From NCBI GenBank assembly GCA_028873975.1, contig JAPPMO010000119.1, forward strand, positions 104,651 to 168,650: DNA of 64,000 nt, in the 5' to 3' direction. The translations under genes and the position numbers were made by a program. The notes below the pieces were generated by a model. That model was not told where the DNA came from. It saw nothing but the letters and a program-made list of their open reading frames with translations, and did no database searches. This DNA comes from Chloroflexota bacterium. Its GTDB lineage: Bacteria > Chloroflexota > Anaerolineae > Aggregatilineales > Phototrophicaceae. Numbering within the stretch: the first letter of the stretch is position 1; every line of letters begins with the position of its first letter. Of this stretch, positions 1,738 to 24,609 are shown piece by piece.

Positions 1738-1851
1738 GGTTCCTGGCAGAATCCTAATGCAATCCAGTTATGCGCTTGACGAACCGACTTTGCAGCATAC
1801 GATCCCCGCAGGCGCCCTCAACTTGCTGATCTGCCTCGCTTGCCTTGGCAG

Positions 1852-6702: not shown

Positions 6703-7610
6703 TAGATTACCCGAGACCTCATGGGGATAAACTAGCTGCGCTTATGGCGAATGCGAAATTGCCAGGTTCTGACGCGCAGCGGATCCGAGAAGCTTTAGAA
6801 CGCTATGAACAATGGCGATATGAGTTAATTCATCTTGAGGATGGACTGAGTGAGTGTCTGCCAAAGGCTGTGAATCTGCTTAATGCTTATAAATATTTTA
6901 TGGACAAAGAGTTGATATTCGATAGTCCGAATGATTTCCTGTATCGGCAAAAAGGACAGCTAAAGTTGGACAATACAGTTATAGAAGAGTTCTTGCCCAT
7001 ATTCATCCCTAAGATTTTGCAATCAGATTTGGAGGGGACGAGTCTACAATTTGGCTCATATTCATGCTTTGCAGGCGTTTATTTCACATCTACTTTACCG
7101 CACATCGAGAAAGGCGGTGGTCTAAAAATAAGACAGAAAAATCAAGATTTCGTTGTTAGCAGACCGCTGTTTGTTCGCGCATCGCATCATAAAGATTTTG
7201 CGGATGCAATAACTACACAGACAAACCTTGCCTATATGGCGGCGGAATGCAAGACCAATTTGGACAAGACTATGTTTCAGGAAGCGGCCGCAACCGCGCT
7301 TGATTTGAAAGCAAGCGTACCATCTGCGAAGTATTTCTTGCTGTGCGAATGGCTCGATATGACACCGATTAGCAGCAGCTTAACCGCAATTGATGAAATC
7401 ATTGTGTTGCGCAAGGCTAAACGAATCTCTTCTGATGTTCGGAGACTTTTCTCCACTGCGGCTGGTCGCGAAAGTAATCGCAATTACTTCGAGCGATACT
7501 TGCGTTCTAATCCTTTTCGAGAAGATACACTGGCGCGATTTGCTAATCATATAAACCGTCTGATAAGAGACACACCCGAGGACGAAGTTCTTAAGCGCGG
7601 ACATTTTTAG
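6699..7610 (+). CDS. Type II restriction endonuclease, Bpu10I-like (tentative)
   Basis: This 303-residue protein has no membrane segment. The block around residues 176-196 (NLAYMAAECKTNLDKTMF and on) carries an Glu-Cys-Lys core (E183, K185) that fits the second half of a PD-(D/E)xK nuclease site. From memory, this block followed by an aliphatic strand and CEWLDMTPIS resembles the Bpu10I endonuclease family, but I could not run a profile search. Translational coupling to a DNA methyltransferase by ATGA overlap strongly supports a restriction role. Bpu10I itself uses two different subunits for an asymmetric site; only one endonuclease gene is seen here, so this enzyme may act as a homodimer. 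Low GC matches the methyltransferase. Confidence 0.65.
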   Translation: MIDYPRPHGDKLAALMANAKLPGSDAQRIREALERYEQWRYELIHLEDGLSECLPKAVNLLNAYKYFMDKELIFDSPNDFLYRQKGQLKLDNTVIEEFLPIFIPKILQSDLEGTSLQFGSYSCFAGVYFTSTLPHIEKGGGLKIRQKNQDFVVSRPLFVRASHHKDFADAITTQTNLAYMAAECKTNLDKTMFQEAAATALDLKASVPSAKYFLLCEWLDMTPISSSLTAIDEIIVLRKAKRISSDVRRLFSTAAGRESNRNYFERYLRSNPFREDTLARFANHINRLIRDTPEDEVLKRGHF

Positions 7611-9391: not shown

Positions 9392-10579
9392 ATGCACGAC
9401 AAACTCAGCGAAATTCGGCTCGACCATAGCAGTTACATCTCCTTGCACGCGCAGCTGCACAATCAATTGCGCCGCTTGATCTTGTCCGAGCGCTGGCGGG
9501 ATGGCGAGCGGATCCCCACAGAGACGCAGTTGTCCCGGCATTTGGATATCAGCCGCACGACGGTGCGCATCGCCCTGCAGCGCATCGAAGTTGAAGGGCT
9601 GATCGAACGGACAGCGGGCCGCGGCACATTTGTCCGCTGCCAGCCCCAAGCCCAGCTCGCCAATCGCTCCATCGGTTACCTCACCTGCAGTTTCCACAAC
9701 GAGATCCACACAAACATCCTCAACAGCGCCCAGACCGAATTGCGCTCGGCCGGCTATCAGGTGATATTCAGCAATTCACAAGACCGTGATGACGAAGCGC
9801 GTATTTTGCAACAATTGTTAGATGACAACGTGGCCGGCTTGATGCTCTGGGCCAATGCCAAACCGACGGATGTTACCAGATCCATTCTGTTGGAATACGA
9901 ACGCCGCAAGATTCCCATCGTCTTTATCGATCGTCCGGTAGCGGGTATCCGGGCGGATTATGTATCGAGTGATAATTTCGGCGGTTCCTACGATCTGGTT
10001 CAGCATCTGATTGAGTTGGGACATCAGCAAATTGTGCCGTTAATGCCAAATATCGACGATCTCCATCCAGTCAATGAACGGCATCGCGGCTATGCGGCCG
10101 CTATTGAAGAGCGTGGCATGGTTGCCCATGCCCCTTGGAAGATCAACCCGCCGGCGCGCCACGAATTCCACGAAACAGATATTTATCATCTGGTAGGTCC
10201 GCAGAGTCAACTGATCACCGAGCAAGTCATGCGCTTGATGAACGACGGTCCCCATAATTATGGGGGAGAACCGCCGACAGCGATTGTCTGCATCAATGAC
10301 ATCCTTGCCATCATCGCTATCAGCGCCTTGCAGAAGATAGGTTATCAGGTGCCCGACAATATCTCGGTGGTCGGTTTTGACGATATTGGCATGGCTTCTC
10401 ATATTGGCGTGCCGCTAACAACCGTAGCTCAAAATGCCTATGAGTTGGGCAAGGTCGCGTCTCGGATGCTGATAGAGCGTTTGCGGGGCGGGGAAATGCC
10501 GCCTCGCTCTCACGAGGCGCCGACTCAGTTGCGAATCCGCAGCTCCACCGCAGCGCCATTGTTGGTCATGCGGCAATAG
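9392..10579 (+). CDS. GntR-type transcriptional regulator with LacI-like sugar-binding domain (AraR architecture)
   Basis: This 395-residue regulator has an N-terminal GntR winged helix at about residues 16-84, shown by RIPTETQLSRHLDISRTTVR and the wing GLIERTAGRGTFV. A periplasmic-binding-protein-like effector domain follows at about 90-390, with SIGYLTCSF, IPIVFIDRPV, PTAIVCINDILAI and ISVVGFDDIGMA. The C-terminal domain of such proteins binds a sugar, which releases DNA. A perfect palindrome sits immediately upstream. The next gene in the same direction, 184 bases on, is an ABC binding protein, so this regulator probably controls the 10.7-18.4 kb importer. The start codon has no clear Shine-Dalgarno. 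Confidence 0.85.
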   Translation: MHDKLSEIRLDHSSYISLHAQLHNQLRRLILSERWRDGERIPTETQLSRHLDISRTTVRIALQRIEVEGLIERTAGRGTFVRCQPQAQLANRSIGYLTCSFHNEIHTNILNSAQTELRSAGYQVIFSNSQDRDDEARILQQLLDDNVAGLMLWANAKPTDVTRSILLEYERRKIPIVFIDRPVAGIRADYVSSDNFGGSYDLVQHLIELGHQQIVPLMPNIDDLHPVNERHRGYAAAIEERGMVAHAPWKINPPARHEFHETDIYHLVGPQSQLITEQVMRLMNDGPHNYGGEPPTAIVCINDILAIIAISALQKIGYQVPDNISVVGFDDIGMASHIGVPLTTVAQNAYELGKVASRMLIERLRGGEMPPRSHEAPTQLRIRSSTAAPLLVMRQ

Positions 10580-10763: not shown

Positions 10764-12521
10764 ATGAAAGCAAGATCAATTCTCTTCGTACTTCTCGTCG
10801 TCATGTTTGCCGCGATCAGCTTTACCGCTGTCGGGCAAGATGTCGCGCGCGAAGACACCGTCATCTTCGATATTGACGGTCCCGCCGGCGCTGTCGCCAA
10901 CTTCGACCAGATGAACTACATGCTGCCCAACAATCACCGCAACAAGGGTTTGCATCAAGCCGTGGCCGAGCCGCTTTTCATTCTTAACTACGAAACTGGC
11001 GAGATTATGCCCTGGCTGGCCGAGAGCATGGAAAGCAATGACAGCCTCGATGTTTGGACCCTGAACCTGCGCGAAGGCGCGGAATGGGCCGACGGCCATC
11101 CCTTCGATTCGGGCGATGTCGTGTTCAGTATTGGGCTGTTGCTGAACGACGAGACCGCGTCGCTCAGCTACGCCGGCAACGTTCAGACCTGGATTGAGAG
11201 CGTCGAGGCTGTAGACGACTTGACGGTGCAGTTCAACTTGACGCAACCCAACCCGCGCTTCCAGCTGGACTTCTTCTCGGTCCGCATTTGGGGCGGCATC
11301 AACATGCTTCCCGAGCACGTTTGGGCGGACAAGGATCCCTACACCTTCAATAACTTCGATCCGGATCAAGGTTGGCCAATGGGCACGGGTCCCTACGTTT
11401 TGACCTCCGCCAACGAGACCACCTGGGTCTACGACCGCAACGACGATTGGTGGGGCGCCAAGACCGGCGTCTTCAAGCTGCCTGAACCGCAACGCGCCCT
11501 CTGGGTCGTGACCGGTAACGACCAGATCCGCACCACCATGGCTGTTGCCAACGAGTTGGACAGCATCATGGATGTCACCCTGGGCGCATTCGAAGCCATG
11601 CAGGCGCAAAACGACAACATTTTCGCCTGGGTAGAGGGCATGCCCTTCGTATGGTTGGATCCCTGCCCGCGCCAACTGTCCTTCCAGACACAGCGCGCGC
11701 CCTGGGACAACCCGGAAATGCGCTGGGCGATCAACCACGCCATCAGCCGCGACCAGGTCATCGAAATCGCTTATGAAGGCGTCACCATTCCGTCGCGTAC
11801 CCTGTACGTCGAGTACGGCGCCATGTTCCCCTTCATTGATGCGATTGAAGATGCCGGTATGGCTTTCGACAGCGGTTCCGATCTGGATGCCGCGGCGGCA
11901 TTGCTCGAGAACAACGGCTATTCGCGCAATGACGACGGCCGCTGGGTCGATGGTGATGGCAACGCGCTGAGCCTGGAAATCCAGGTACACGAGGGCTTCA
12001 TCGAGAAACGCCGCATCACCACCAACCTGGTGGAGCAGTTGCAGCGCTTCGGCATTGATGCCCGGGCTGCGGTCATCGCTGGACCCACCTGGGGCGACAA
12101 CAAGCGCTTCGGCAACTACGAAGCCACCACCGACTGGGACGCTTGCGGTTCCATCAACGAGCCCTGGGCGTCGCTGGATCGCTACACCTCCCGCTGGTGG
12201 GTAGCCTTGGGCGAGCGTTCCTCCGGCAACAACCACGTCCGCTGGGACGGCATGAACAACGAAGCCTACAGCGAACTCATTGGCCAACTCGGCTCGCTGC
12301 CTTTGGGCCATCCGGATGCCATTGACCTGGTTGTAGAAGCCTATCGCTATCTCTACGAAGATCTGCCCTTCATCCCGTTGAATCAGGCGACCAAGCTGAT
12401 TCCCTTCAACAGCACCTACTGGGATGGCTGGCCGACTTCGGATAACAACTGGAACCACCCGGCTACCTGGTGGCAATCGACCCATCAATTCTTCCAGGAA
12501 ATCACCAAAGCTGGCATGTAA
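10764..12521 (+). CDS. ABC transporter substrate-binding protein, family 5
   Basis: This 585-residue protein is the extracytoplasmic receptor of an oligopeptide/nickel/oligosaccharide-type importer (SBP_bac_5). An N-terminal signal peptide (MKARSILFVLLVVMFAAISF, cleavage near VGQ-D) lacks a lipobox cysteine. Family landmarks are LHQAVAEPLFILNYETGE, WTLNLREGAEWADGHPFDSG, the GTGPYVLTS turn and MRWAINHAISRDQVIEIA. It heads a gene run with two Dpp/Opp-type permeases and two ATPases, so all importer components are present. Family-5 proteins carry peptides but also oligosaccharides; the adjacent AraR-like regulator favours a sugar. A 13-bp hairpin follows the stop. Confidence 0.85.
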   Translation: MKARSILFVLLVVMFAAISFTAVGQDVAREDTVIFDIDGPAGAVANFDQMNYMLPNNHRNKGLHQAVAEPLFILNYETGEIMPWLAESMESNDSLDVWTLNLREGAEWADGHPFDSGDVVFSIGLLLNDETASLSYAGNVQTWIESVEAVDDLTVQFNLTQPNPRFQLDFFSVRIWGGINMLPEHVWADKDPYTFNNFDPDQGWPMGTGPYVLTSANETTWVYDRNDDWWGAKTGVFKLPEPQRALWVVTGNDQIRTTMAVANELDSIMDVTLGAFEAMQAQNDNIFAWVEGMPFVWLDPCPRQLSFQTQRAPWDNPEMRWAINHAISRDQVIEIAYEGVTIPSRTLYVEYGAMFPFIDAIEDAGMAFDSGSDLDAAAALLENNGYSRNDDGRWVDGDGNALSLEIQVHEGFIEKRRITTNLVEQLQRFGIDARAAVIAGPTWGDNKRFGNYEATTDWDACGSINEPWASLDRYTSRWWVALGERSSGNNHVRWDGMNNEAYSELIGQLGSLPLGHPDAIDLVVEAYRYLYEDLPFIPLNQATKLIPFNSTYWDGWPTSDNNWNHPATWWQSTHQFFQEITKAGM

Positions 12522-12536
12522 TTGATGCGATTTCGT

Positions 12537-12564
12537 ATGAGGTTGGGGCTTGCCCCAGCCTCAT
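12537..12564 (+). other. Strong intercistronic hairpin after the binding-protein gene
   Basis: A 13-base stem (ATGAGGTTGGGGC pairing with GCCCCAGCCTCAT, one G-U pair) closes a two-base loop, 16 bases after the stop codon. No T-run follows, so it is not a typical terminator. It probably protects the abundant binding-protein mRNA from 3' decay and lowers read-through expression of the permeases. Confidence 0.7.
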
Positions 12565-12698
12565 GCTCGCCTTGCGCCCTGTTCCCGGCCATGTTCAGCC
12601 TCGGCGCATGTAAATAAACATTGCTTAAGAATCTTGATAGGTATTTCTTTTACGGTGCGTTCACCGCGATCGACGGTTTAGGAGAAAGAAGCTTTTCA

Positions 12699-13712
12699 AT
12701 GGGAGGCCTATCGCTCAACTATATTATGCGCCGACTATTGGTCTTTTTCCTGACCTTGTGGGTGGCGGCGACTTTGATTTTTATCATTCCACGCCTGGCG
12801 CCTGGCGATCCGATCACCGCCATGGTTGCGCGCATGTCGCAGCAGGCCGGTTTTGTGGAAAACGCGGATCTGATCATTGAAGGCTGGAAAGAGCGTTTTG
12901 GCTTAAACGATCCGGTTTACGTGCAGTATCTTCGTTACATGGGCAATCTACTGCGCTTCGACCTTGGTTTGGCCATGGCCAGGTTCCCCTCGCCGGTATC
13001 CCAGCTGGTGTCGCGCGCCTTGCCTTGGACGATTGGCCTGGTCGGGATAGCGACATTGATCTTCTTCACCGTGGGCAATTTGTTTGGCGCGCTGCTGGCA
13101 TGGACCAAGACGCCAAAGCTGGTCAAAGTCTTGATTCCAATGTCGATGATCTTCACCTCCATCCCGCCCTTGTTAGCCGGTCTGTTATTGGTCTACATAT
13201 TCGGCTTTTTGCTAGACATATTCCCCCAAGCATATGCCTATCACCACTCCTTTCGACAACCGGAGTTTACGCTCAAGTTCATAGGCAGCGTACTCCATCA
13301 CGGTTTCTTGCCGGCCATGGCGATCGTGCTGGTGACATTTGGCTATTGGGCGCTTGGCATGCGAGGGATGATGGTGACGATCGAGGGCGAAGATTACATG
13401 ATCCTGGCGCAAGCCAAGGGCTTGAAGCCCTTTTATGTCTTGTACCGCTATATGATTCGCAATGCAATTCTGCCGCAGATGACGGCTTTGGCCGTCTCTA
13501 TCGGCACGCTTGTGGGCGGCTCTGTTCTGGTCGAGGTCATATTCAATTACAACGGTATGGGCACCTTGATCTTCACCGCGATTCGCGAACAAGACTTCAA
13601 CCTGATCCAAGGCACCTCCTTCATCTTGATTGTCACCAGCGCCTTGGCGGTCTTGATCATCGACTTGAGCTACCCGCTTATCGACCCGCGCATTAGCCTG
13701 GAAGGGAAATAG
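12699..13712 (+). CDS. ABC transporter permease, DppB/OppB type
   Basis: This inner-membrane permease of about 337 residues carries the first-permease signature of family-5 importers. The N-terminal helix RRLLVFFLTLWVAATLIF is followed by PRLAPGDPITAMVARMSQ and the extracytoplasmic GLNDPVYVQYLRYMGNLL. The EAA coupling loop is seen in EDYMILAQAKGLKPFYVLYR, and the C-terminus ends in DPRI. The ATG at 12699 is preceded by GGAGAAAG at a rather long distance; an ATG at 12726 just before RRLL is an alternative. It is two bases upstream of the second permease gene and would form the heterodimeric channel with it. Confidence 0.85.
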   Translation: MGGLSLNYIMRRLLVFFLTLWVAATLIFIIPRLAPGDPITAMVARMSQQAGFVENADLIIEGWKERFGLNDPVYVQYLRYMGNLLRFDLGLAMARFPSPVSQLVSRALPWTIGLVGIATLIFFTVGNLFGALLAWTKTPKLVKVLIPMSMIFTSIPPLLAGLLLVYIFGFLLDIFPQAYAYHHSFRQPEFTLKFIGSVLHHGFLPAMAIVLVTFGYWALGMRGMMVTIEGEDYMILAQAKGLKPFYVLYRYMIRNAILPQMTALAVSIGTLVGGSVLVEVIFNYNGMGTLIFTAIREQDFNLIQGTSFILIVTSALAVLIIDLSYPLIDPRISLEGK

Positions 13713-13714
13713 CG

Positions 13715-14665
13715 ATGGCTGCAGAAGCGAAGACCAAGGCTGCGGTCGTTGCCGGCGGCACCAAAAAAGCCGGTGCTTTCAACCGCTTTGACAATCCCTG
13801 GCTCAATTGGAAGTTCCTCGCGGGTGTATCAATCCTTGGCATCATCTTCTTCTTGATCTTCCTCGGCAATACATTTTGGGATACCAGCCTGGCGCTAAAC
13901 GCGAGCGCGCCGCTGAATTTACCGCCCTATGGGATGGAATATCAGAAGGGCAAGAACAATATACTGGTCGGTGTCCCGGAACATCCCCTGGGTACAGAGA
14001 ACAGCGGACGCGACATGCTGGCGCTCTTGATAGTCGGTACGCCGCGCACGCTTGGCGTAGGCGCGATCGCTGCATCGGTTGGTATGCTCGTCGGCATCTT
14101 CCTGGGCTTTCTGGCTGGTTTTCTCGGCGGCTGGATCGATGACGTGATTCGATTAGCCACCGACATCACAATCACCATCCCCTCGCTGCTCGTCTTGATC
14201 GTGATCCAATCGGTCTTGGGCAGTGTGGACCTGATTACCATGGCTCTGCTAATTTCCATGTTCGCCTGGGCGACGCCAACGCGATATATCCGCGCTCAAG
14301 TGCTCACCATGCGCGAGAGCGGTTACGTGCAGATGGCGCGCCTCTCTGGGGTGCCCACGCGCAACATCATGTTCAGGGAAATTATGCCCAATCTGCTGCC
14401 CTATCTGGCGGCGAGTTATATCGGCAATATGACCGGCGCGATCATTTCGGCCGTGGGTCTGGAAGTGCTTGGCTTTGGTCCCCAGCGCATTCCCTCGCTC
14501 GGGGTCGCGATTTTCTTCTCGATCGAGGCGGCTGCCTTGCTGCGCAACATGTGGTGGTGGTGGGGCATCCCGACCGTCATCCTGGCGATCGTCTTCATCG
14601 CGCTCTTGCTCATCAACCTGGGTCTGGACGAAATTGCCAATCCACGCCTGCGCAAAGCGAACTAG
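13715..14665 (+). CDS. ABC transporter permease, DppC/OppC type
   Basis: This 316-residue permease starts two bases after the DppB-type gene. It has a polar N-terminal tail of about 27 residues, a first helix SILGIIFFLIFLG, then the typical EHPLGTENSGRDMLALLIVG segment. The EAA loop is at MARLSGVPTRNIMFREIMPN. The C-terminus NPRLRKAN is canonical. The protein has six predicted membrane helices and pairs with the preceding permease. A short Trp-rich stretch (RNMWWWWGIP) near the last helix is notable but occurs in homologues that carry oligosaccharides. Confidence 0.85.
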   Translation: MAAEAKTKAAVVAGGTKKAGAFNRFDNPWLNWKFLAGVSILGIIFFLIFLGNTFWDTSLALNASAPLNLPPYGMEYQKGKNNILVGVPEHPLGTENSGRDMLALLIVGTPRTLGVGAIAASVGMLVGIFLGFLAGFLGGWIDDVIRLATDITITIPSLLVLIVIQSVLGSVDLITMALLISMFAWATPTRYIRAQVLTMRESGYVQMARLSGVPTRNIMFREIMPNLLPYLAASYIGNMTGAIISAVGLEVLGFGPQRIPSLGVAIFFSIEAAALLRNMWWWWGIPTVILAIVFIALLLINLGLDEIANPRLRKAN

Positions 14666-14686: not shown

Positions 14687-15841
14687 ATGTCCGAGCAGAG
14701 AGAAACCGGCAGCGAACGCGTTGTGCTTGATGTAGACAACCTGCGCATTCATTACGCGACCCCACAGGGTGATGTCATCGCCGTCAGCGATATTAGTTTC
14801 GAGTTGTACGAGGGCGAGACCCTCGGTTTGGTCGGGGAATCCGGCTGTGGCAAATCAACCACAGCCTACGGCATCTTGCAGTTGGTGCAGCCCCCCGGCT
14901 ACATCGTGCATGGCAGCATCGAGGTTGATGGCACGGAAGTGCTCAACCTGACCGAAGAGGAATTGCGCAAATTCCGTTGGACTGGCTTGTCGCTGATCCC
15001 GCAAGGCGCGATGAATTCGCTGAATCCGACCATGCGCGTCAAAGCCCAGATCGTTGACGTGATCGAATCGCACGAAGGCAAAGCGAATTATGAATCGTTC
15101 CGAGAACGCCTCAGCGTATTCTTGCGGAAGATCAGGCGGCCCCGGCGAGGAGAGCCGCTCAAGAAGTACCTCGGCGAATGGCTACGGAATTTGACCTTGC
15201 TCCTGCGCTATGAGCCGCTCAAAGAACGCATCTTCGATTTGTTCCAGGCTGTCGGTCTGCCCAATCGCATCTACAATATGTACCCGCACGAGCTCAGCGG
15301 CGGAATGAAGCAGCGCGTTTGCATCGCCATGGGCGTGGCGCTGCATCCCACGGTCGTCATCGCCGACGAGGCGACCAGCGCGCTGGACGTTGTGGTGCAG
15401 CGGATCGTGGCGCAAACGCTGGTGGAGGTGAAAGACGAGATCGGCGTTTCCCTGATCGTCATCGGCCACGACATGGGCTTGCTGGCGCAGATTGTCGATC
15501 GCATCGCGGTGATGTACGCCGGCAAGATCGTCGAGATTGCGCCCGTCGAAAATGTCTACGCCAATCCGCTGCATCCCTATACGCAACTGCTCATCGATTC
15601 CATCCCCTCGATCAAAGAGCGCAAACCGCTCAAGATCACCGAAGGCATCACGCACGACCCGCGCAACCCGCCCTCGGGCTGCATCTTCCGGCTGCGCTGC
15701 CCCTTCGCCTGGGAACATTGCGCCCTGGAGGAGCCGCCGCAGATCAATGTAGAGGCAAAGCACGAAGTTGCTTGTCACTTGTTCGACGAGCAATTCGAAG
15801 AGAGGAGGTCCAATGCCTTCGCCGCTATTGCAAATTCGTGA
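14687..15841 (+). CDS. ABC transporter ATP-binding protein, DppD/OppD type
   Basis: This 384-residue cytoplasmic ATPase has Walker [10 protein letters not shown], signature LSGGMKQRVCIAMG, Walker B VVIADEATSALD and switch His in VIGHDMGL. The OppD-type C-terminal region with iron-sulfur-like cysteines (SGCIFRLRCPFAWEHC) is complete. An insertion of about 55 residues between the Q-loop and signature (SFRERLSVFLRKIRRPRRGE region) makes it longer than the usual 330. Its last 29 bases overlap the next gene, so the two ATPases are probably translated together. Confidence 0.88.
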   Translation: MSEQRETGSERVVLDVDNLRIHYATPQGDVIAVSDISFELYEGETLGLVGESGCGKSTTAYGILQLVQPPGYIVHGSIEVDGTEVLNLTEEELRKFRWTGLSLIPQGAMNSLNPTMRVKAQIVDVIESHEGKANYESFRERLSVFLRKIRRPRRGEPLKKYLGEWLRNLTLLLRYEPLKERIFDLFQAVGLPNRIYNMYPHELSGGMKQRVCIAMGVALHPTVVIADEATSALDVVVQRIVAQTLVEVKDEIGVSLIVIGHDMGLLAQIVDRIAVMYAGKIVEIAPVENVYANPLHPYTQLLIDSIPSIKERKPLKITEGITHDPRNPPSGCIFRLRCPFAWEHCALEEPPQINVEAKHEVACHLFDEQFEERRSNAFAAIANS

Positions 15842-18380
15842 CGCGACCAAGATCTATTCTTCGGGCGGTTTTATAGGCGGCAGCAAGAAATCGGTTGTCG
15901 CGCTCGATAATTTTAATATGACCATTGCCGAGTCCCCGGCGACCATCACGACCATCGCGGGCGAAAGCGGCAGCGGCAAAACGACCCTGGCGAACCTGGT
16001 GCTCGGCTTCATCAAGCTCAGCTCGGGCAAAATCATCTTCGACGGTGAAGACATCACCGACATGACGGACGAGCAACTGAAAGAATACCGCCGCAACGTG
16101 CAGGCGGTCTTTCAAGATCCTTTTGGGGTCTATAATCCTTTCTATCGCATCGACCACGTTTTTGACCTTGTCAACAAGCATTTCAGCCTGTCGGACAATC
16201 AGAGCGAATATCGTGATATGGTGGAAGCCGGGCTGAATGTTGTCGGCTTGTACGGCGAGGACGTGCTGCGCAAGTACCCGCACCAGTTAAGCGGCGGACA
16301 GCGGCAGCGCATCATGATGGCCCGCGCTTATATGATCAAGCCGCGCCTGATCGTGGCGGACGAACCCGTCTCTATGGTGGACGCCTCGCTGCGCGCCTCC
16401 ATTCTGGATGCCATGCTGCGCCTGCGCGACGATCACAACATCTCTTTCCTCTATATCACGCACGACTTGAGTACCGCCTACCAAATCGGCGACCAGATCT
16501 ACATGCTCTATCAAGGCACGACTGCCGAACGCGGCAGCGCTATGGATGTCATCGACGCGCCGCAGCACCCTTATGTGCAGCTCTTGATTGATTCCGTGCC
16601 AGTGCCCGACCCGACCGACAAATGGGATGTCAATATCTCGCTGCCGAGCGAAGAGGAGATGCGCACAGCCGCCTCGAAAGGCTGCCGCTATTATCCGCGC
16701 TGCCCGCATCGCATGGACAAATGTCTGGAAGAACAGCCGCCGCTGTTCAAGATGGACAAGCCAAAGCACGAAGCCGCTTGCTACTTGTACGAAGAGAACG
16801 ATGTCGCGCCGATTGAAGCGCCTATCTTTTACAGCAAGCCCAAAACGGATGAGGTATTGCGGCCGGCGCGCCGGTCGCGGGTGCCGCTGGCAGCGGCGGC
16901 AATCGTGCTGATTGTGGCTGCGGCAGCCGCTGTTTACGCAATCAACCAGAATAATGCTGCCATCGCCGCCGAAGCAACGGCTGCAGCGCGCGCTGCCGAA
17001 GCGACTGATGCAGCTATCGCTGCCGCGACCGCCTCGGCTGCCGCCGAAGAAATCACCGCCGCGACCGCTCAAGCCGAAGCTGAAGCCTCAGAACCGACGC
17101 CGATCCCCGAGCAGGATTTCAAGCTGCCCCCCGACGGAGCAAGCGACAAGGGCGCTCTCGCGCTCAATGTGGTGACGATGGCCGAAATCGCCGGCGAGGG
17201 TGACATACACCGGTACAGCTTTGAAGGACTTGACGGTCAAGAGGTCACAGTCAAGATACGGACGGGCGGCGGCGGTTTGAGCGGCGGCAACCTCAACTCG
17301 CCCTACGGCACCATCTATGGACCTGACGGCGAGTTTGTGGCGCCGCTTGGGGACACGGCAGTGCGCCCCAGACGCAGCTACAACGCGCAACTCACGCTGC
17401 GGTCGGGGACCTACACGATTATCGTCGGACCCGCCGAAGTGGACCGCTACGGTCTGGTAGGCGACGCGCCTTATCAGGTGGAAGTCGAAGGCGACGCGCC
17501 TGAAATAGAACCGACGCCCGAGCCGACGCCGATCCCCGAGCAGGATTTCAAGCTGCCCCCCGACGGGGCAAGCGACAAGGGCGCTCTCGCGCTCAATCTG
17601 GTGACGATGGACGAAATCGCCGGTGAGTCTGATAGGCACCGGTACAGCTTTGAAGGACTTGACGGTCAAGAGGTCACAGTCAAGATACGGACGGGCGGCG
17701 GCGGTTTGAGCGGCGGCAACCTCAACTCGCCCTACGGCACCATCTATGGACCTGACGGCGAGTTTGTGGCGCCGCTTGGGGACACGGCAGTGCGCCCCAG
17801 ACGCAGCTATAACGCGCCGCTCATCTTGCGGGCGGGGATATATACAGTCATCGTCGGGGCGGCCGAAGTGGATCGCTATGGTCTGGTAGGCGACGCGCCT
17901 TATCAGGTGGAAGTTGAAGGCGACGAGCCGGCGCCCGCGCCAGAGCCGACAGCCTTGCCGGAAATCGATCCTACGCCCCTGCCGCGGCCAGATTTCATCC
18001 TGTCGTCCGCCGGCGCGCAGGACAAAGGCTCGCTGACCATTGAAGAGTTGACGAAGGATGAAATCACCGATGCTGATGATAAACACAGTTACCGCTTTAC
18101 AGCGACTGCCGGGCAGGATGTATCAGTCAAAATCCGCACCGGCGGCAGTGGCTTAAGCGGCGGCAATCTCAACTCGCCCTATGCTACGATCTATGGACCC
18201 GATGGCGAATTCGTGGCGGCGCTGGGCGATACGGCCGTCCGGCCCAGACGCAGCTACAACGCACAATTAACATTAAAGACGGGGGATTACAGCATCATCG
18301 TTGGCTCGGCGCAAGTGGACCGTTATGGACTAGTTGGCGATGCGCCTTATCAACTGATAGTGGAGAGCGCGGGCAGCTAG
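15813..18380 (+). CDS. DppF-type ABC ATPase fused to a membrane anchor and three repeated beta-rich domains
   Basis: This protein of about 855 residues begins with a complete OppF/DppF-type ATPase: Walker A GESGSGKTT near residue 50, LSGGQRQRIMMARA, LIVADEPVSMVD, and the Cys-rich C-terminal block ending near residue 320. It continues without a stop through a basic patch (RPARRSR) into one membrane segment at about 357-377 (VPLAAAAIVLIVAAAAAVYA). An Ala-rich linker and three repeats starting near residues 435, 578 and 727 follow. Each repeat resembles a PPC-like beta-sandwich (HRYSFEGLDGQEVTVKIRTG, then SGTYTIIVG-like strands). By the positive-inside rule the repeats would lie outside the membrane. 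AGAGGAGG before the ATG at 15813 decides the start. Ordinary family members stop after about 330 residues, so this is an unusual fusion. Confidence 0.8.
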   Translation: MPSPLLQIRDATKIYSSGGFIGGSKKSVVALDNFNMTIAESPATITTIAGESGSGKTTLANLVLGFIKLSSGKIIFDGEDITDMTDEQLKEYRRNVQAVFQDPFGVYNPFYRIDHVFDLVNKHFSLSDNQSEYRDMVEAGLNVVGLYGEDVLRKYPHQLSGGQRQRIMMARAYMIKPRLIVADEPVSMVDASLRASILDAMLRLRDDHNISFLYITHDLSTAYQIGDQIYMLYQGTTAERGSAMDVIDAPQHPYVQLLIDSVPVPDPTDKWDVNISLPSEEEMRTAASKGCRYYPRCPHRMDKCLEEQPPLFKMDKPKHEAACYLYEENDVAPIEAPIFYSKPKTDEVLRPARRSRVPLAAAAIVLIVAAAAAVYAINQNNAAIAAEATAAARAAEATDAAIAAATASAAAEEITAATAQAEAEASEPTPIPEQDFKLPPDGASDKGALALNVVTMAEIAGEGDIHRYSFEGLDGQEVTVKIRTGGGGLSGGNLNSPYGTIYGPDGEFVAPLGDTAVRPRRSYNAQLTLRSGTYTIIVGPAEVDRYGLVGDAPYQVEVEGDAPEIEPTPEPTPIPEQDFKLPPDGASDKGALALNLVTMDEIAGESDRHRYSFEGLDGQEVTVKIRTGGGGLSGGNLNSPYGTIYGPDGEFVAPLGDTAVRPRRSYNAPLILRAGIYTVIVGAAEVDRYGLVGDAPYQVEVEGDEPAPAPEPTALPEIDPTPLPRPDFILSSAGAQDKGSLTIEELTKDEITDADDKHSYRFTATAGQDVSVKIRTGGSGLSGGNLNSPYATIYGPDGEFVAALGDTAVRPRRSYNAQLTLKTGDYSIIVGSAQVDRYGLVGDAPYQLIVESAGS
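17094..17928 (+). repeat. Two near-identical 429-bp tandem repeats inside the fused ATPase gene
   Basis: The segment from 17094 recurs from 17523 at an offset of exactly 429 bases, with only scattered differences up to about 17928. A third, more diverged copy starts about 447 bases later (GAT codon of the repeat at 17991). The offsets are multiples of three, so the reading frame is kept. The DNA-level identity indicates a recent duplication of one repeat domain. Confidence 0.85.
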
Positions 18381-18529: not shown

Positions 18530-18608
18530 TTTCCTGCGTCCATATCAGATCATGGTCTAAGCGACGCGGATTTGAAAGCGTTTCTGTCTAGCTGTAGAGG
18601 GAGTTGTG

Positions 18609-19400
18609 ATGTTAAGTCAAGAACAGATTGATTTCTTTCACGAGAATGGATTCCTGCGGATCCCGCAAGTCTATTCCGAAGACGAAATCAATGAGATGTC
18701 GGATAGCCTTGACCGTTTGATCGATGACTGGGCTTTGACCAGCCCGGGCTGGTCGGGTCCCTGGCGCGATGTTTATTTGGACGCGGAAGTCGAAAAGCAG
18801 GTCAAGCTAACCGCCATGCACGACTTGCACCTGTACTCCGACGCCTGGATGCGCGCGGCCACCAATCCCAAGCTGGCGACGGCGCTATCCCAACTATTGG
18901 ATTCGAGCGTCGAATTGCACCACACAACCATGCACATCAAGCCGCCGCAGACCGGCCATCCCTTCCCTATGCACCAGGATTCTCCTTTCTACGAACATAC
19001 CGATGGACGTTTTATCGATACGCTGGCGCACCTGGACGACACCTTCCACGAAAACGGCGAGATCCGCTTCCTGGCCGGTTCTCATAAAAGCGGGAAGCTC
19101 CCCCACATTCTTAAGAATCCGGATGGGACCTCCTGCTCGCCCCACCTCAATACCGACGCATACAAACTGGAAGATACCGTGCCCGTGCCAGCCAAACGCG
19201 GCGACGTCGTTGTCTTCCACATTTACTGCATTCATGGCTCCTACATCAACCAGACCACAGAGCCGCGCCGAATGGTGCGCATGGGTTATCGCGATCCGCA
19301 TAATGATCAACTGGCGGGCCAGAGCAATGGACGCCCCGGCTTGATCGTTAAAGGCTATCGTGAACGACGTGGCGACGAAGAATTGTTGAAACTAACGTAG
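18609..19400 (+). CDS. Phytanoyl-CoA dioxygenase (PhyH) family Fe(II)/2-oxoglutarate oxygenase
   Basis: This protein of about 263 residues has the PhyH pattern. The N-terminal QIDFFHENGFLRIPQVYS opens the fold, the iron ligands His-x-Asp are in FPMHQDSPFYEH, and the distal His is in FHIYCIHGSYINQT with the 2-oxoglutarate-binding Arg in EPRRMVRMGYRDP. It would hydroxylate an organic substrate using oxygen, 2-oxoglutarate and Fe(II), implying aerobic metabolism. AGAGGGAG before the ATG at 18609 fits as ribosome site; a GTG one codon earlier is also possible. Such enzymes are common next to sugar-catabolism genes in this kind of genome, usually with unknown substrates. It heads a plus-strand run with a ROK kinase 15 bases downstream. 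Confidence 0.85.
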   Translation: MLSQEQIDFFHENGFLRIPQVYSEDEINEMSDSLDRLIDDWALTSPGWSGPWRDVYLDAEVEKQVKLTAMHDLHLYSDAWMRAATNPKLATALSQLLDSSVELHHTTMHIKPPQTGHPFPMHQDSPFYEHTDGRFIDTLAHLDDTFHENGEIRFLAGSHKSGKLPHILKNPDGTSCSPHLNTDAYKLEDTVPVPAKRGDVVVFHIYCIHGSYINQTTEPRRMVRMGYRDPHNDQLAGQSNGRPGLIVKGYRERRGDEELLKLT

Positions 19401-19415
19401 CTGGCAAGGTCATAG

Positions 19416-20324
19416 GTGAGCGACTGGGTTTCCGCGTGCGTCGTCGGCGTCGATATCGGCGGCAGCAAGATCAGCGCAGGTTTGGTCACGTCAACGGGCG
19501 AGATCTTGCGGCGGCGCTCAGTCGCTACTCCCGCTACACCATCAGCGATCCTGGCTGAAGTTAAGCGACTGTGTCATGAGTTGATCGCCGGTTTCCAGGG
19601 CGAGATCGTCGCTATCGGGGTCGGCAGCGCCGGCATGGTTGACAGCAAGAGCGGACAAGTGATCCACGCCAATGACAACCTGCCCGGCTGGACCGGCACA
19701 TGTCTGTCCGCGCTTGATATTGGCGGCGGGCTTCCCGTCTTGGCCGAGAACGACGCGCGCGCGTTTGCCTATGGCGAGGCGAAGATGGGCGCGGGCCGGG
19801 ACTATAGGTCCTTGCTCTGTGTCACGGTTGGAACCGGCGTCGGCGGCGGCATCATCCTTGATGGCGAGATCTGGCGCGGTCCCAACTACAGCGCCGGCGA
19901 AATCGGCTATCTGGTAGTCGGCTGGGAAGGGGATAGCCCGATCATCCTCGATCAATTCGTCTCGGGACCCGGCATCGAAGGCGCGTACCAAGCCTCCACG
20001 GGAACGGAAGATCATATACCGCTCACCGAAATCGCTCGCCGCGCCTATGGGGGCGAGCTTGTCGCGGCGCAGACCATACAAGACAAAGCGCGACAACTTG
20101 GCATCATACTGGGCGGATTCGCCGCGTCGATCAATCCGGCCGCGCTGGTGATCGGCGGCGGCGTAGCGCAAATCGGCGAGCTTTGGTGGGAGGCGCTGGA
20201 AAGTTCCTTCCGAGAGAGCGCGCCATCGCTGCTGCGTTCGACGCCGATACTGCCGGCGAAGCTGGGCCTGGAAGCCGTGCTGCTGGGCGCGGCCATGCTG
20301 GCTTGGGACAAGGCGACCTCATGA
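19416..20324 (+). CDS. ROK family sugar kinase lacking the usual zinc motif
   Basis: This 302-residue protein starts with GTG and has the ROK ATP-binding motif GVDIGGSKISAGLV, the conserved VLAENDARAFAYGE segment and TVGTGVGGGIILDGEIW. ROK kinases normally continue with Gly-Glu-x-Gly-His and a Cys-x-Cys-Gly-x-x-Gly-Cys zinc site. Here the corresponding stretch is GEIGYLVVGWEGDSPIILDQ, with Tyr for His and no cysteines. The zinc-free form occurs in some divergent ROK members. Its stop overlaps the DUF4127 gene by four bases, and NanE follows, so N-acetylmannosamine or a related amino sugar is the most plausible substrate. This assignment is inferred from context. Confidence 0.8.
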   Translation: MSDWVSACVVGVDIGGSKISAGLVTSTGEILRRRSVATPATPSAILAEVKRLCHELIAGFQGEIVAIGVGSAGMVDSKSGQVIHANDNLPGWTGTCLSALDIGGGLPVLAENDARAFAYGEAKMGAGRDYRSLLCVTVGTGVGGGIILDGEIWRGPNYSAGEIGYLVVGWEGDSPIILDQFVSGPGIEGAYQASTGTEDHIPLTEIARRAYGGELVAAQTIQDKARQLGIILGGFAASINPAALVIGGGVAQIGELWWEALESSFRESAPSLLRSTPILPAKLGLEAVLLGAAMLAWDKATS

Positions 20325-21784
20325 AGCTCGGCTTGATCCCGCTGGACGAGCGCCCGGCCTGCGCGCGTTATCCGCAAATGATTGGCGACATCGCGGGCCT
20401 GAAACTGCTGGCGCCGCCGGCCGCTGCGCTCAGTCGAATGCGTGAACCCGGCAATTGCTTGGCGATCGCCGGCTGGTTGCGCGAAAACGCGAGCGAACTT
20501 GACGCCCTGATTGTATCGATTGATATGCTGGTCTACGGCGGGTTGACAGCGTCGCGCATTACCGACGACGCAACGGCCGCGCTCCTCAGCCGCCTGGATA
20601 TCCTGCGCGAGCTGAAGCGGGGACATCCTCGCCTGCGTATCTATGGCTTCAATCTCATCACACGGATTTCCGGCAATCCCGATAGCGTCGCCGAACCCGA
20701 GTATTGGAGCGAATCGGGCCCGCAGATCTATCAATACTCTCAAGCCTACGACGCGCGCCGCTGGGGAGCTGGACCCGCGCCACAGCGAGAGCAGTTGCAG
20801 GAAAGCCATTTGCTGGATGTGCTGCGCCGACGGCTGCGCAATCATATCGTTAATCTGGCCGTTCTGGATTTATTGGCGGAGAATGTCTTTGACCTCTTGG
20901 TGATCAGCTCGGACGATACCAGCGAATATGGCTTTGGCACGCGCGAAAAAGTCTGGATTCAAGAATGGGTCGATCGGCGCGGCGGCGACGAAAGCTTGCT
21001 CGTGTACCCGGGCGCGGATGAGGTCGCCTGTGCGTTGCTGGCGCGCACCTTTGTCGATATCCTCGAGCAAGCGCCGCGTTTTTTCACGCATTATGCCATC
21101 GAGGCCGATAAAGATCGCACCGCCCCTTTTGAGGACGGACCGGTATGCTTGACCTTGCAGCGGCAGATCCGCGCTGTTGGCGGAACACAAGTTGACGACA
21201 TCGCTGAAGCCGATATGATCGTCGCCGTCAATCCACCGGCGCCGAGCGCTCGATCATTCTTCCAGCCCGAGCAAGCGGAGAGTGATCGACGCTATCGCCA
21301 AGGCGCTCTCATAGACCTTGCCGAACAGATCGGGCGCTGGATTAACGAAGGGCGCCGTGTCATCGTCTGTGACCTGGCCTATCCCAATGGCAGCGACCCG
21401 GTCTTGATCGAGGCGCTGCAGCAGAAGATTCGGCTCCGGGATCTAGCAGCCTACGGCGGCTGGAATACCGCGGGCAATACAATCGGAGTGGCGCTCGCGC
21501 AGGGCATTGCGCAACTGCGCGACTTCAATCAAGAAGAGGCGCTGCGATTCTTGACGCATCGTTTTGCAGAGGACTTCTGCTTTATGCATCAGCTGCGCCC
21601 GACCATGAACGCCGACATGCCCCGCTACGATGATACGACCGAGGCGGCAATGATCGAACTTGTCAGCCGCGGATTGAATGACCGAATCCGGCATTTGTCC
21701 GGTCTTGGCGCTTGGCGGGTGAGTAATGTTCGCTTGCCCATGAAGCGCCGCTTTGAAATCGACTTCGATCTGGAGCGCTTGTGA
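20321..21784 (+). CDS. DUF4127 family protein
   Basis: This protein of about 487 residues begins [20 protein letters not shown], the characteristic opening of DUF4127 proteins. Further family-like blocks are [65 protein letters not shown] and [19 protein letters not shown]. There is no signal peptide and no membrane segment, so it is probably cytoplasmic. The family has no established biochemical function that I know of. It overlaps the ROK kinase by ATGA and the NanE epimerase start by GTGA, so the three are translationally coupled. This context points to a role in amino-sugar or N-acyl-sugar catabolism. Confidence 0.8.
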
Positions 21785-22482
21785 ACGCCGATGCTTTCCT
21801 CGCCGCCGTCAAAGGCAAGCTGATCGTATCTTGTCAGGCGCTGGAAGATGAGCCGCTGCATGGCTCGTCAATCATGGCGAAGATGGCGACGGCGGCGGAA
21901 ATCGGCGGCGCGGCCGCCATCCGCGCCAACAGCCCGGCCGATATCCGCGCCATCAAAGAAGCGGTCGATTTGCCGGTGATCGGCTTGTACAAACGCGGCG
22001 ACAGCGGCGTTTACATCACACCGACATTTGACGACGCGGCGGCTATCGCCGCGGCCGGCGCCGATATCATCGCTCTCGATTGCACGGCGCGTCCGCGCCC
22101 CGACGGCGCGCGTCTGCGCGATCTGCTGGCGCGCATTCACGCCGAGCTGGGCAAACCTGTTTTCGCCGATATATCGACGCTGGAGGAAGCGCAGGCGGCT
22201 GCTGAATACGGCGTTGCCATGGCGGGACCGACGCTGTCCGGCTATACCGATGCGCGCTCGATTTCTACCGCGACTGCCGAGCCCGACTATGCGTTGTTGG
22301 GAGCGATGATCGCGGCGCTGCCCGTCCCGGTGATCGCCGAAGGGCGGATTCATAGTCCGCGGCAGGCGCGACAGGCGCTGGATATGGGCGCGTGGGCGGT
22401 GGTGGTTGGCTCTGCCATCACGAGACCTCGTACAATCACCGCTCGCTTTGCGTCGGCGCTGCGGGATGACGATGGATATTGA
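21781..22482 (+). CDS. nanE: N-acetylmannosamine-6-phosphate 2-epimerase (NanE family)
   Basis: This 233-residue TIM barrel carries the NanE opening [16 protein letters not shown], followed by [45 protein letters not shown] (catalytic-site region), [27 protein letters not shown] and [14 protein letters not shown]. The length is normal for the family. It converts N-acetylmannosamine 6-phosphate to N-acetylglucosamine 6-phosphate, a late step of sialic-acid and ManNAc use. The start GTG overlaps the DUF4127 stop by four bases. No NanA lyase of clear identity lies next to it, so the source may be free ManNAc rather than sialic acid. Confidence 0.85.
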
Positions 22483-22518
22483 CACAATGTTTTGATTGAT
22501 CGAATGCGGGAGCAAGGT

Positions 22519-23538
22519 ATGAAAACGCTTGGTTTCCTCGGTGTGGCGCATATCCACACGCCGGGCTTTGTCAACAGAATCAATGAACGACCCGACGAGT
22601 TCCGTGTCAAAGCGCTTTGGGATAATCAGCCGGACCGGGCGCGGATCGCCGCGGCTCATCTAAAGGACTGCGCCGTCAAGGATATCGATGCGATCGTGGG
22701 GGACGACGAAATCGATGCCGTCGTCGTCTGTTCGGAGACGGCGCTGCACCGCGAACTGGTAGAAGCTGCGGCGGCGGCCGGCAAAGATATGTTCGTGGAA
22801 AAACCGCTGGGCATCACAGCTTGCGACGCTTATGCCATGCAAAAGGCGATCGACGATGCCGGGCTGATCTTCCAGATCGGGCATTTCATGCGCGGTTACC
22901 CCTTCTTGCGCGTCATCAAACGCTTGATCGACGACGGCGCCTTGGGGACGATTACCCGAATCCGCCACAGCAACGTGCATCATGGCGCCATCGGCGGGTG
23001 GTTTGATGCCGGCAATGGCTGGTACGACGATGGCTGGCTGTGGATGACGGACTTGGAGAAATCGGGTATGGGCGGTTTTGGCGACTTGGGCGCGCATTCG
23101 CTGGACGTGTTGATGTGGCTCATGGGTGATGTCTTGTCCGTCACGGCGCAGATGGATTCGCTGCTGGGCAAGTACCCCTGCGACGAATACGGCGAAGGCA
23201 TGCTGCGCTTTGCCAATGGCGCGATTGGGACGCTGGCGGCGGGCTGGGTCGATCTGGCGCGCACGATGCCCATCCATGTCAGCGGCACGGAGGGCGTCGC
23301 CTATGTCGATGATGACAAATTGTATGTAAAATCTGATAAGCTGCCGGGGGCGGAGCTGCGCGAATGGACGGACCTGCCCGAGGCGTTGCCCCATGCCTTC
23401 GACTTGTTCCTCGATGCGCTCGTTGGGCAAGACGCGCCGCTGATTTCGGCGAAAGAAGCGGCTGACCGCACAGCCGTGATGGAAGCGTTTTATCAAGCTG
23501 CGGAATCGAATACTTGGGTTCAGCCTCAAAGATCATAA
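22519..23538 (+). CDS. Gfo/Idh/MocA family oxidoreductase
   Basis: This protein of about 339 residues has an N-terminal Rossmann domain (KTLGFLGVAHIHTPGF), the strand VVVCSETALHRELV and the family motif DMFVEKPLGITACDAY, where the Lys of EKP is catalytic or cofactor-contacting. The C-terminal alpha/beta domain contains GGFGDLGAHSLDVLMWLMGD, with the Gly-Asp-x-Gly-x-His pattern. It would oxidise or reduce a sugar or inositol derivative with NAD(P). The ATG at 22519 follows GGGAG and is preferred to a TTG nine codons earlier. It lies 36 bases after nanE and 15 bases before a second oxidoreductase of the same family. Confidence 0.85.
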   Translation: MKTLGFLGVAHIHTPGFVNRINERPDEFRVKALWDNQPDRARIAAAHLKDCAVKDIDAIVGDDEIDAVVVCSETALHRELVEAAAAAGKDMFVEKPLGITACDAYAMQKAIDDAGLIFQIGHFMRGYPFLRVIKRLIDDGALGTITRIRHSNVHHGAIGGWFDAGNGWYDDGWLWMTDLEKSGMGGFGDLGAHSLDVLMWLMGDVLSVTAQMDSLLGKYPCDEYGEGMLRFANGAIGTLAAGWVDLARTMPIHVSGTEGVAYVDDDKLYVKSDKLPGAELREWTDLPEALPHAFDLFLDALVGQDAPLISAKEAADRTAVMEAFYQAAESNTWVQPQRS

Positions 23539-23553
23539 AAGGAGCGATAGAAC

Positions 23554-24609
23554 ATGAGCACATTGAAAGTGGGTGTGATTGGCGTCGGCGGGATCGCCCG
23601 CACGCATATGCCGGGTTGGGAAGCGTCGCCCCATGCCGAAGTGGTGGCCGGCGCCGATCTGGCGCCCGAGGCGCTGGAGCGCTGGAGCCGCGATTGGAAT
23701 GTCAGCAAGCTGGAGACAGACTCCGCCGCCGTCATCAACGACCCGGATATCGACATTATCGATGTCTGCACCCCCAATATGTATCACGCCCCTTTGTCCA
23801 TCGCCGCGCTGGAAGCGGGCAAGCACGTCATCTGTGAAAAGCCGCTGGCGCCCACCCCCGCCGATGTCCAGCGCATGATTGAGGCTCGCGACAAATCCGG
23901 CAAGCTGCTGATGACCGCGCAGCATTTTCGCTTTGCAGGCACATCTAAAGCGCTGAAAGCGGAGATTGACGGGGGCGCGCTGGGCGAGATCTATCACGCC
24001 CGCAGTTGGATGCTGCGCCGGTCTGGCATCCCTACCAGCCTCGCCTTCCTCTCCAGCGAGCATAGCGGCGGCGGCGCCTGCATCGATATCGGCGTGCACA
24101 TACTCGATTTGACGCTCTGGATGATGGGCAATCCAGAGCCGGTCTCGGTTACCGGCGTCGCGCGCCGAGAGCTGGCCAGCAACCCCATGGCTTTCGGGCG
24201 CTGGCCCCGCTATGGGCGCATTCCTGAAGGAATGGATGTCGAAGAGATGGCCATGGCTTTTGTTCGCTTCGCAACTGGCGCGACATTGGTATTCGAAATA
24301 TCCTGGCTGCTGCATCACGACATTGAAGGCGAAGATATGCAGATGTGGCTCTATGGCAGCGACGGCGGCTCGCATTGGCCCAAGTGCGAGGTTTACGACA
24401 CCAATTACGACGACATGCAACTCTACAATCGTAAACTGAAATTGACGCAGAATTTTTCCGAGCCGCACGCGCAGGAATGCGTCGAATTCGCGCAGGCCAT
24501 CGTCGATGGCGCGCCATCGCCGGTGCCGGCCGAGCAGTCGCTGCAGGTGATGAAGATCCTCAACGGCATCTATGAAAGCCAGAAGACGGGCCGTGAGGTC
24601 ATGCTGTAA
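23554..24609 (+). CDS. Gfo/Idh/MocA family oxidoreductase
   Basis: This 351-residue oxidoreductase starts after a good AAGGAG site. The NAD(P)-binding fold is shown by KVGVIGVGGIARTHMPGWEA, IIDVCTPNMYHAPLSI and HVICEKPLAPTPADV. The substrate domain includes GGACIDIGVHILDLTLWMMG. It is only distantly similar to the preceding family member, so the two likely act on different intermediates. It is the last enzyme of the PhyH-ROK-NanE run; a lipoprotein gene starts 37 bases downstream. Confidence 0.85.
   Translation: MSTLKVGVIGVGGIARTHMPGWEASPHAEVVAGADLAPEALERWSRDWNVSKLETDSAAVINDPDIDIIDVCTPNMYHAPLSIAALEAGKHVICEKPLAPTPADVQRMIEARDKSGKLLMTAQHFRFAGTSKALKAEIDGGALGEIYHARSWMLRRSGIPTSLAFLSSEHSGGGACIDIGVHILDLTLWMMGNPEPVSVTGVARRELASNPMAFGRWPRYGRIPEGMDVEEMAMAFVRFATGATLVFEISWLLHHDIEGEDMQMWLYGSDGGSHWPKCEVYDTNYDDMQLYNRKLKLTQNFSEPHAQECVEFAQAIVDGAPSPVPAEQSLQVMKILNGIYESQKTGREVML

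Follow-up and report, generated by a model that had tools for sequence, protein, structure and literature searches.

A second ATPase of a Dpp-type importer fused to a predicted membrane segment and PPC-fold repeats in a genus of Chloroflexota

Importers of the DppF/OppF type are encoded by operons for a solute-binding protein (SBP), two permeases and two ATPases. In the solved structures the second ATPase is a chain of 334 amino acids (DppF, 8z1v_D) or 333 amino acids (OppF, 8z21_D), while the chains 8j5q_D and 8wd9_D are longer (612 and 548 amino acids) because they contain a second ATPase-like stretch. We know of no extracellular domain in these structures. A different build is found in a 64,000-nucleotide stretch of DNA (the window) from a member of the Phototrophicaceae (Chloroflexota; Anaerolineae; Aggregatilineales), positions 104,651 to 168,650 of contig JAPPMO010000119.1 in assembly GCA_028873975.1. 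Here the second ATPase gene, at 15813-18380 (+), encodes a fusion protein of 855 amino acids. The operon layout is that of DppF/OppF importers and the ATPase with its C-terminal region is alike, 8z1v_D covering residues 3-327 of the fusion, but the protein is not a soluble subunit that ends near residue 330. It continues into a hydrophobic segment, a stalk and three repeats.

Other described proteins share single features with the fusion. In GlnPQ and OpuA it is the permease, and not the ATPase, that carries an extracellular substrate-binding domain; they share with the fusion a ligand-handling extracellular domain within the importer, predicted here to lie on the ATPase. MacB is an exporter that combines an N-terminal ATPase, four transmembrane segments and an extracytoplasmic domain in one chain, an order also predicted for the fusion, which differs in having one transmembrane segment (TM) and separate permeases. 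NrtC and CmpC are importer ATPases with a large C-terminal domain, as in the fusion, but the C-terminal domain of NrtC is binding-protein-like and lacks a TM whereas the tail of the fusion is of the PPC fold and lies behind a TM. PPC domains (PF04151), present in clostridial ColG and a bacillar collagenase, have the fold of the fusion repeats; the collagenase PPC sits on a secreted enzyme while the PPC domains of the fusion are joined through a TM and a stalk to an importer ATPase. An earlier reading of the window from its letters alone (the sequence-only reading) knew of no described importer built this way, and no description of an importer ATPase with a membrane-anchored extracellular domain was found by title or abstract opening in the open-licence literature, among the matches listed. 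The parts are known, and their combination is new to the authors.

Translation of the window gives a single frame of 855 amino acids plus stop with zero internal stops, so the uninterrupted run from ATPase to repeats that had been read from the sequence stands. The ATG is preceded by GAAGAGAGGAGGTCCA and overlaps the end of the gene for the partner ATPase, which is of the OppD/DppD type and has no tail (14687-15841 (+)). Residues 1-326 (15813-16790 (+)) are a DppF/OppF-type ABC ATPase domain with its oligo_HPY C-terminal region. Pfam ABC_tran matches at 32-186 with 94.2 bits (cut-off 25) and oligo_HPY at 239-304 with 60.5 bits (cut-off 27.1). The motifs, which we take to be Walker A (GESGSGKT, 50-57), the signature (LSGGQ, 159-163), the end of Walker B (ADEP, 182-185) and the H-loop (H217), are intact, as expected of the complete DppF-type ATPase that had been claimed. 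These residues and four cysteines (291, 297, 304 and 323) are invariant across 31 aligned fusions. The DppF_dipep equivalog NF043071 scores 196.3 bits, below its NCBI cut-off of 660; the substrate is not readable from the ATPase.

The ATPase is followed by a linker with an Arg-rich patch (residues 327-358, 16791-16886 (+)), predicted to be cytoplasmic from the counts of Lys and Arg (K/R) on the two sides of the hydrophobic segment, and by a single putative TM (residues 359-377, 16887-16943 (+)). Kyte-Doolittle (KD) windows of 19 residues exceed 1.5 only at starts 354-362, with a maximum of 2.65 at 359-377, and this sole hydrophobic peak spans 354-380; the sequence-only reading, which also had the basic patch, was right to within a few residues in placing the segment at about 357-377. 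Its Ala-rich linker corresponds to the stalk at residues 378-429 (16944-17099 (+)). In a model of the full-length protein a single helix crosses the TM and stalk (359-418, pLDDT about 50-68) and is followed by three all-beta domains.

These domains are the repeats, at residues 430-565 (17100-17507 (+)), 573-708 (17529-17936 (+)) and 722-855 (17976-18377 (+)). By profile boundaries each is 134-136 amino acids long, slightly shorter than the 140-150 first estimated. Repeats 1 and 2 score 207.4 and 208.1 bits against the repeat profile and share 92% identity as protein and 93% as DNA; for repeat 3 against either of them, protein identity is 67-68% and DNA identity 70%. Pfam PPC is matched by repeat 3 only (757-830, 27.2 bits, cut-off 25.9). 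In a search of the whole genome, which gave 10 PPC matches at E<=0.01 with 3 above the cut-off, repeat 3 was among the 10 but scored 19.8 bits, under the cut-off. The fold was computed from a model of repeat 3 (pLDDT 90.7, pTM 0.87), whose best matches in the PDB are PPC and collagen-binding domains: 5sv5 (E 3.7e-6, TM-score by target 0.71), 2o8o (E 4.1e-6, TM-score by target 0.73) and 1nqj (E 5.1e-6). Identity to the five best fold matches is 13-17%. GOLD domains, subtilases and PliG stand lower in the list, PliG-type lysozyme inhibitors at rank 22 by fold and at E 0.17-0.61 by sequence, and the repeat profile found nothing better than E 0.17 when compared with the PDB by sequence. As judged from these models the repeats adopt the PPC beta-sandwich fold, in agreement with their first description as PPC-like.

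The fusion is conserved in its genus. Searches for the tail covered 396 genomes from the class and 154 from the order, those for the ATPase covered the 154 genomes of the order, and named genomes were scanned once. A search for the same architecture in related genomes, as the sequence-only reading had proposed, was made with the whole protein at E<=1e-100. It recovered the fusion from 32 of the 34 genomes in the genus, its own included (33 copies, as one genome has two), and from none of 27 genomes belonging to other genera. Only one stop was counted among the 33 matches (genome G018) and it is that protein's own end; two matches cover part of the query (G003 and G004), and in G004 the copy is truncated by the end of its contig. 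Neither of the two genomes of the genus that lack the fusion carries a close orthologue; the best ATPase is 38% identical in G013 and 50% in G019. Three repeats are present in 20 of 32 fused proteins and two in 11, and one protein is contig-cut. Strong matches to the tail profile (275-657 bits for the best match) are confined to the 32 fusion genomes of the 154 in the order, scored with up to 11 candidates per genome, and weaker matches at E<=1e-6 occur in 61 further genomes, all of other genera, with a best score of 62.7 bits. Across the class, with up to 4 candidates scored per genome, 11 of 396 genomes were positive for the tail at E<=1e-14, all of them from the genus of the fusion. The own genome holds no second copy of the tail at E<=0.001.

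The ATPase also occurs without the tail. Other genera of the order yielded 21 ATPase-only matches in 20 genomes (E<=1e-110), with frames all of 335-391 codons; the match in G130 reaches just 54% identity and could be a paralogue. A set of 78 named loci contains 32 fused and 46 unfused ones, the latter from Anaerolineae, Caldilineae, Trueperaceae, Poribacteria, Rhodobacteraceae and others. A stop is visible in 45 of the 46, 0-28 residues beyond the end of the match (residue 274-332), and the remaining one (L156) runs off its contig. These lengths fit the statement in the sequence-only reading that DppF proteins normally end after about 330 residues. No separate PPC frame was found near the 46 unfused orthologues at E<=0.1 with two profiles among 1809 frames of at least 100 amino acids, in DNA reaching at most about 6 kb to each side and often less; as a positive control, the repeat profile recovered all 33 fused loci. 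The arrangement that would have spoken against a true fusion, homologues that always keep the two parts as separate genes, is therefore not what is seen. An 80-leaf tree with the DppD of the window as root places the fused ATPases (33/33) in one clade with support of 0.989, and the tail was thus most likely acquired once, in the ancestor of the genus.

Both parts of the protein are under purifying selection. Pairs of unlike length were skipped, leaving 207 finite values of which 159 were within the dS limits; in these 159 non-independent pairs the ATPase has a median dN/dS of 0.036, and the tail one of 0.145 (maximum 0.412). Selection thus preserves the tail as a protein, yet it changes faster. 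Additionally, the dS of the tail is several-fold above that of the ATPase in several pairs, suggesting that ATPase and tail have not always shared one history.

The side of the membrane on which the tail lies was approached through charge and through its relatives. The hydrophobic segment has a KD of 2.26-3.09 across 32 fusions, and in 32/32 the 15 residues before it are richer in K/R than the 15 after it, which is the pattern of an N-terminal side inside and a C-terminal side outside. Relatives of the tail were 16 loci hand-picked from weak hits, of which 15 (14 from other genera and L211 from the genus of the fusion) gave 16 frames and L210 gave none. By eye, 15 of the 16 frames open with a signal peptide or a lipobox and the sixteenth (L196) is without a visible start. 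The tail is therefore likely to be extracellular, the case that the sequence-only reading had considered for the repeats. No Omp85 match was found in the own genome, against positive results in 7 of 14 controls, a thin test because it concerns a single family in a genome 95.8% complete; this suggests that the cell probably has one membrane, which would place the tail at the cell surface. The lipoprotein signal peptidase LspA was found in the own genome. Among the relatives, L198, L205, L208 and L209 are exported proteins whose N-terminal part looks thioredoxin-like (CGPC/CPPC motif, by eye) and which also contain regions matching the tail profile.

The reading preferred here, which is given somewhat less than an even chance, is that the tail is a tethered capture arm on the second ATPase of a Dpp-type importer. 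The ATPase would have gained a basic patch, a TM helix, a helical stalk and two to three PPC domains; it would remain cytoplasmic and function as usual with the partner ATPase and the two permeases. The TM would pin the ATPase to the membrane and the stalk would lift the PPC array to the surface beside the permeases, where the array may hold a ligand near the pore, such as a solute polymer, a polymer of the host matrix or wall, or an unlipidated binding protein. It is unlikely that the ATPase has an extracellular receptor of its own, that is, a PPC array that docks solute, matrix glycan or free binding protein at the pore, with the docking coupled to ATP hydrolysis via the single TM. If that were true, a receptor-coupled ATPase would represent a novel route for loading importers in cells that have one membrane and binding proteins without a lipid anchor.

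Docking of the binding protein predicts, among other things, that tail and binding protein co-vary, and this was tested. The SBP of the window (SBP_bac_5; 10764-12521 (+)) has a signal-peptide-like N-terminus without a lipobox (by eye). Partner SBPs were located in 64 of the 78 loci, 28 of them fused and 36 unfused. Among the fused loci, L082 is truncated, and a lipobox is present in 0/27 with a readable start. Unfused SBPs are mixed in this respect: the lipobox pattern flagged 12, including L156, which was discounted because its match precedes the start. Also among the unfused, L118, L122 and L134 are truncated, and L131 and L157 show only part of the N-terminus. With distances of the ATPase, DppD and PhyH (a neighbouring gene product) controlled for, and the contig-cut L105 omitted, the distance of the last repeat correlates across 27 loci with that of permease C (r 0.65), the SBP (r 0.50) and permease B (r 0.49), with a permutation p of 0.0005 each. 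Without the window, L095 and L096 the correlations climb to 0.71-0.80 (24 loci), and within the 14 tails that are not of the NLNSPY type they are 0.27-0.53 (p 0.0025-0.027), L095 and L096 being grouped there by pattern though their tails are nearer to the NLNSPY group.

Several observations weigh against the capture arm. Within the 13 NLNSPY-type tails the co-variation is non-significant (r 0.18-0.30, p 0.11-0.24), and the overall result is mixed, with a signal carried largely by one deep split. The SBP and permeases of the window (10764-14665) are 97-99% identical to the L095 and L096 proteins while its tail is nearest to those of L085, L087 and L090, whose SBPs are of another type. Tail and SBP can therefore be uncoupled, and the operon looks like a mosaic. 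Several unfused Anaerolineae SBPs likewise have no lipobox. Of 37 SBP_bac_5 proteins found in the own genome 30 were examined and, with L167, L173, L182, L185 and L194 left out as read on the wrong strand, the 25 readable ones contain about one convincing lipobox (L180, where it lies further along than the flagged place; L175 was also flagged and is not convincing). Since SBPs without a lipobox are the rule and the tail is unique in the genome, there is no clear need to anchor just this one SBP. Lastly, the full-length model is weak over the ATPase (pLDDT mostly <50, pTM 0.26) and uninformative on the arrangement of the domains.

Loss of the lipobox was also considered as a special reason for the fusion and was rejected, as SBPs without one occur genome-wide and in unfused relatives. 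Lipoboxes are scarce in SBPs L165-L194 although LspA is present and no Omp85 match was found.

Of the alternatives to a capture arm, an adhesin or wall anchor survives best and is doubtful, though to be taken seriously. The PPC array would bind the host matrix or the cell's own wall, and the importer would be a mere membrane anchor or would be clustered and fixed at contact sites. The top PDB matches, being PPC and collagen-binding domains of bacterial collagenases, are consistent with this as a match of fold only, and the variable number of repeats, the near identity of repeats 1 and 2 and the fast divergence of the tail recall surface adhesins. Additionally, several fused loci come from isolates whose names look to us like sponge or coral holobiont bins. 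However, the tail is linked to this one importer in 32/34 genomes of the genus, a tie that would not be required of a generic adhesin.

A sensor is improbable. Binding of a ligand by the outer PPC domains would be relayed to the ATPase via TM and linker and would gate transport, a proposal favoured by a TM that starts 36 residues past the last of the four conserved cysteines. NrtC, which one report describes as an ATPase subunit in the cytoplasm that carries a regulatory domain (PMC6603209), shows that the C-terminal domain of an importer ATPase can be regulatory. Yet the linker is variable in sequence and looks flexible, and a single TM offers no obvious coupling; the distance of the linker and TM tracks that of the SBP and permeases weakly (r 0.14-0.23, 27 loci) and negatively within both tail groups.

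Somewhat less probable still is an error of topology or a processed tail, in which the segment stays out of the membrane, leaving the tail in the cytoplasm, or the chain is cleaved into two parts. The hydrophobic segment of the window is Ala-rich, at the KD of 2.65 given above, which would suit a segment that fails to insert; the KD range and the K/R excess across all 32 fusions, as well as the exported domain relatives, argue for insertion. The possibility that an internal start lets the tail be translated on its own was rejected, as starts with a ribosome-binding motif at residues 301-372 are seen in only 4/32 fusions (L006, L028, L029 and L031), at differing positions of which none is conserved. 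An assembly or gene-calling artefact, or a frameshift joining two genes, had nothing in its favour and was rejected as very unlikely, given 33 copies in 32 genomes, the ends of the unfused orthologues, the lack of a PPC frame in the DNA fetched around them and purifying selection in frame.

The fusion lies in a complete Dpp-type importer operon and is presumably a member of the assembled transporter. Besides the SBP_bac_5 protein and the partner ATPase, the operon has two BPD permeases (BPD_transp_1), at 12711-13712 (+), with an inferred start in a listed frame that opens at 12621, and at 13715-14665 (+). Upstream, a domain search identified a regulator with a GntR-type helix-turn-helix and a LacI-type sugar-binding domain (9392-10579 (+)). 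Downstream genes (18606-24609 (+)) encode a PhyH dioxygenase (start at 18606), a ROK kinase (19416), a DUF4127 protein (20321), NanE (21781) and Gfo/Idh proteins (22492 and 23554). PhyH is found in 31/32 fused loci, the contig of L105 ending before its position, and in 3/46 unfused loci at 27-33% identity, in the DNA fetched around each locus. NanE is above its NCBI cut-off (290.6 vs 189 bits) while the ROK kinase is above none. The NanE, ROK and Gfo/Idh neighbours suggest that the importer may take up an amino sugar. One study reports transporters for N-acetylglucosamine and other sugars in sponge Anaerolineae and Caldilineae (PMC6306507). The DUF4127 protein beside NanE (20321-21784 (+), 428 bits) had no paper in the literature search.

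Elsewhere in the window, a DNA methyltransferase (N6_N4_Mtase, 50.5 bits) followed by a Bpu10I-type restriction endonuclease (285 bits) forms a compact restriction-modification pair at 5476-7610 (+). Two adjacent look-alike frames of 514 and 520 amino acids at 193-3414 (-) each match the middle domain of acyl-CoA dehydrogenase only.

In the usual view, importer ATPases lie wholly in the cytoplasm; a fusion conserved in a genus, and predicted to take the ATPase chain through the membrane, suggests that this rule can be broken. It offers a natural handle on whether events outside the cell can be physically tied to the motor inside it. For the Chloroflexota, it also raises the question of how binding proteins without a lipid anchor are retained by cells with one membrane.

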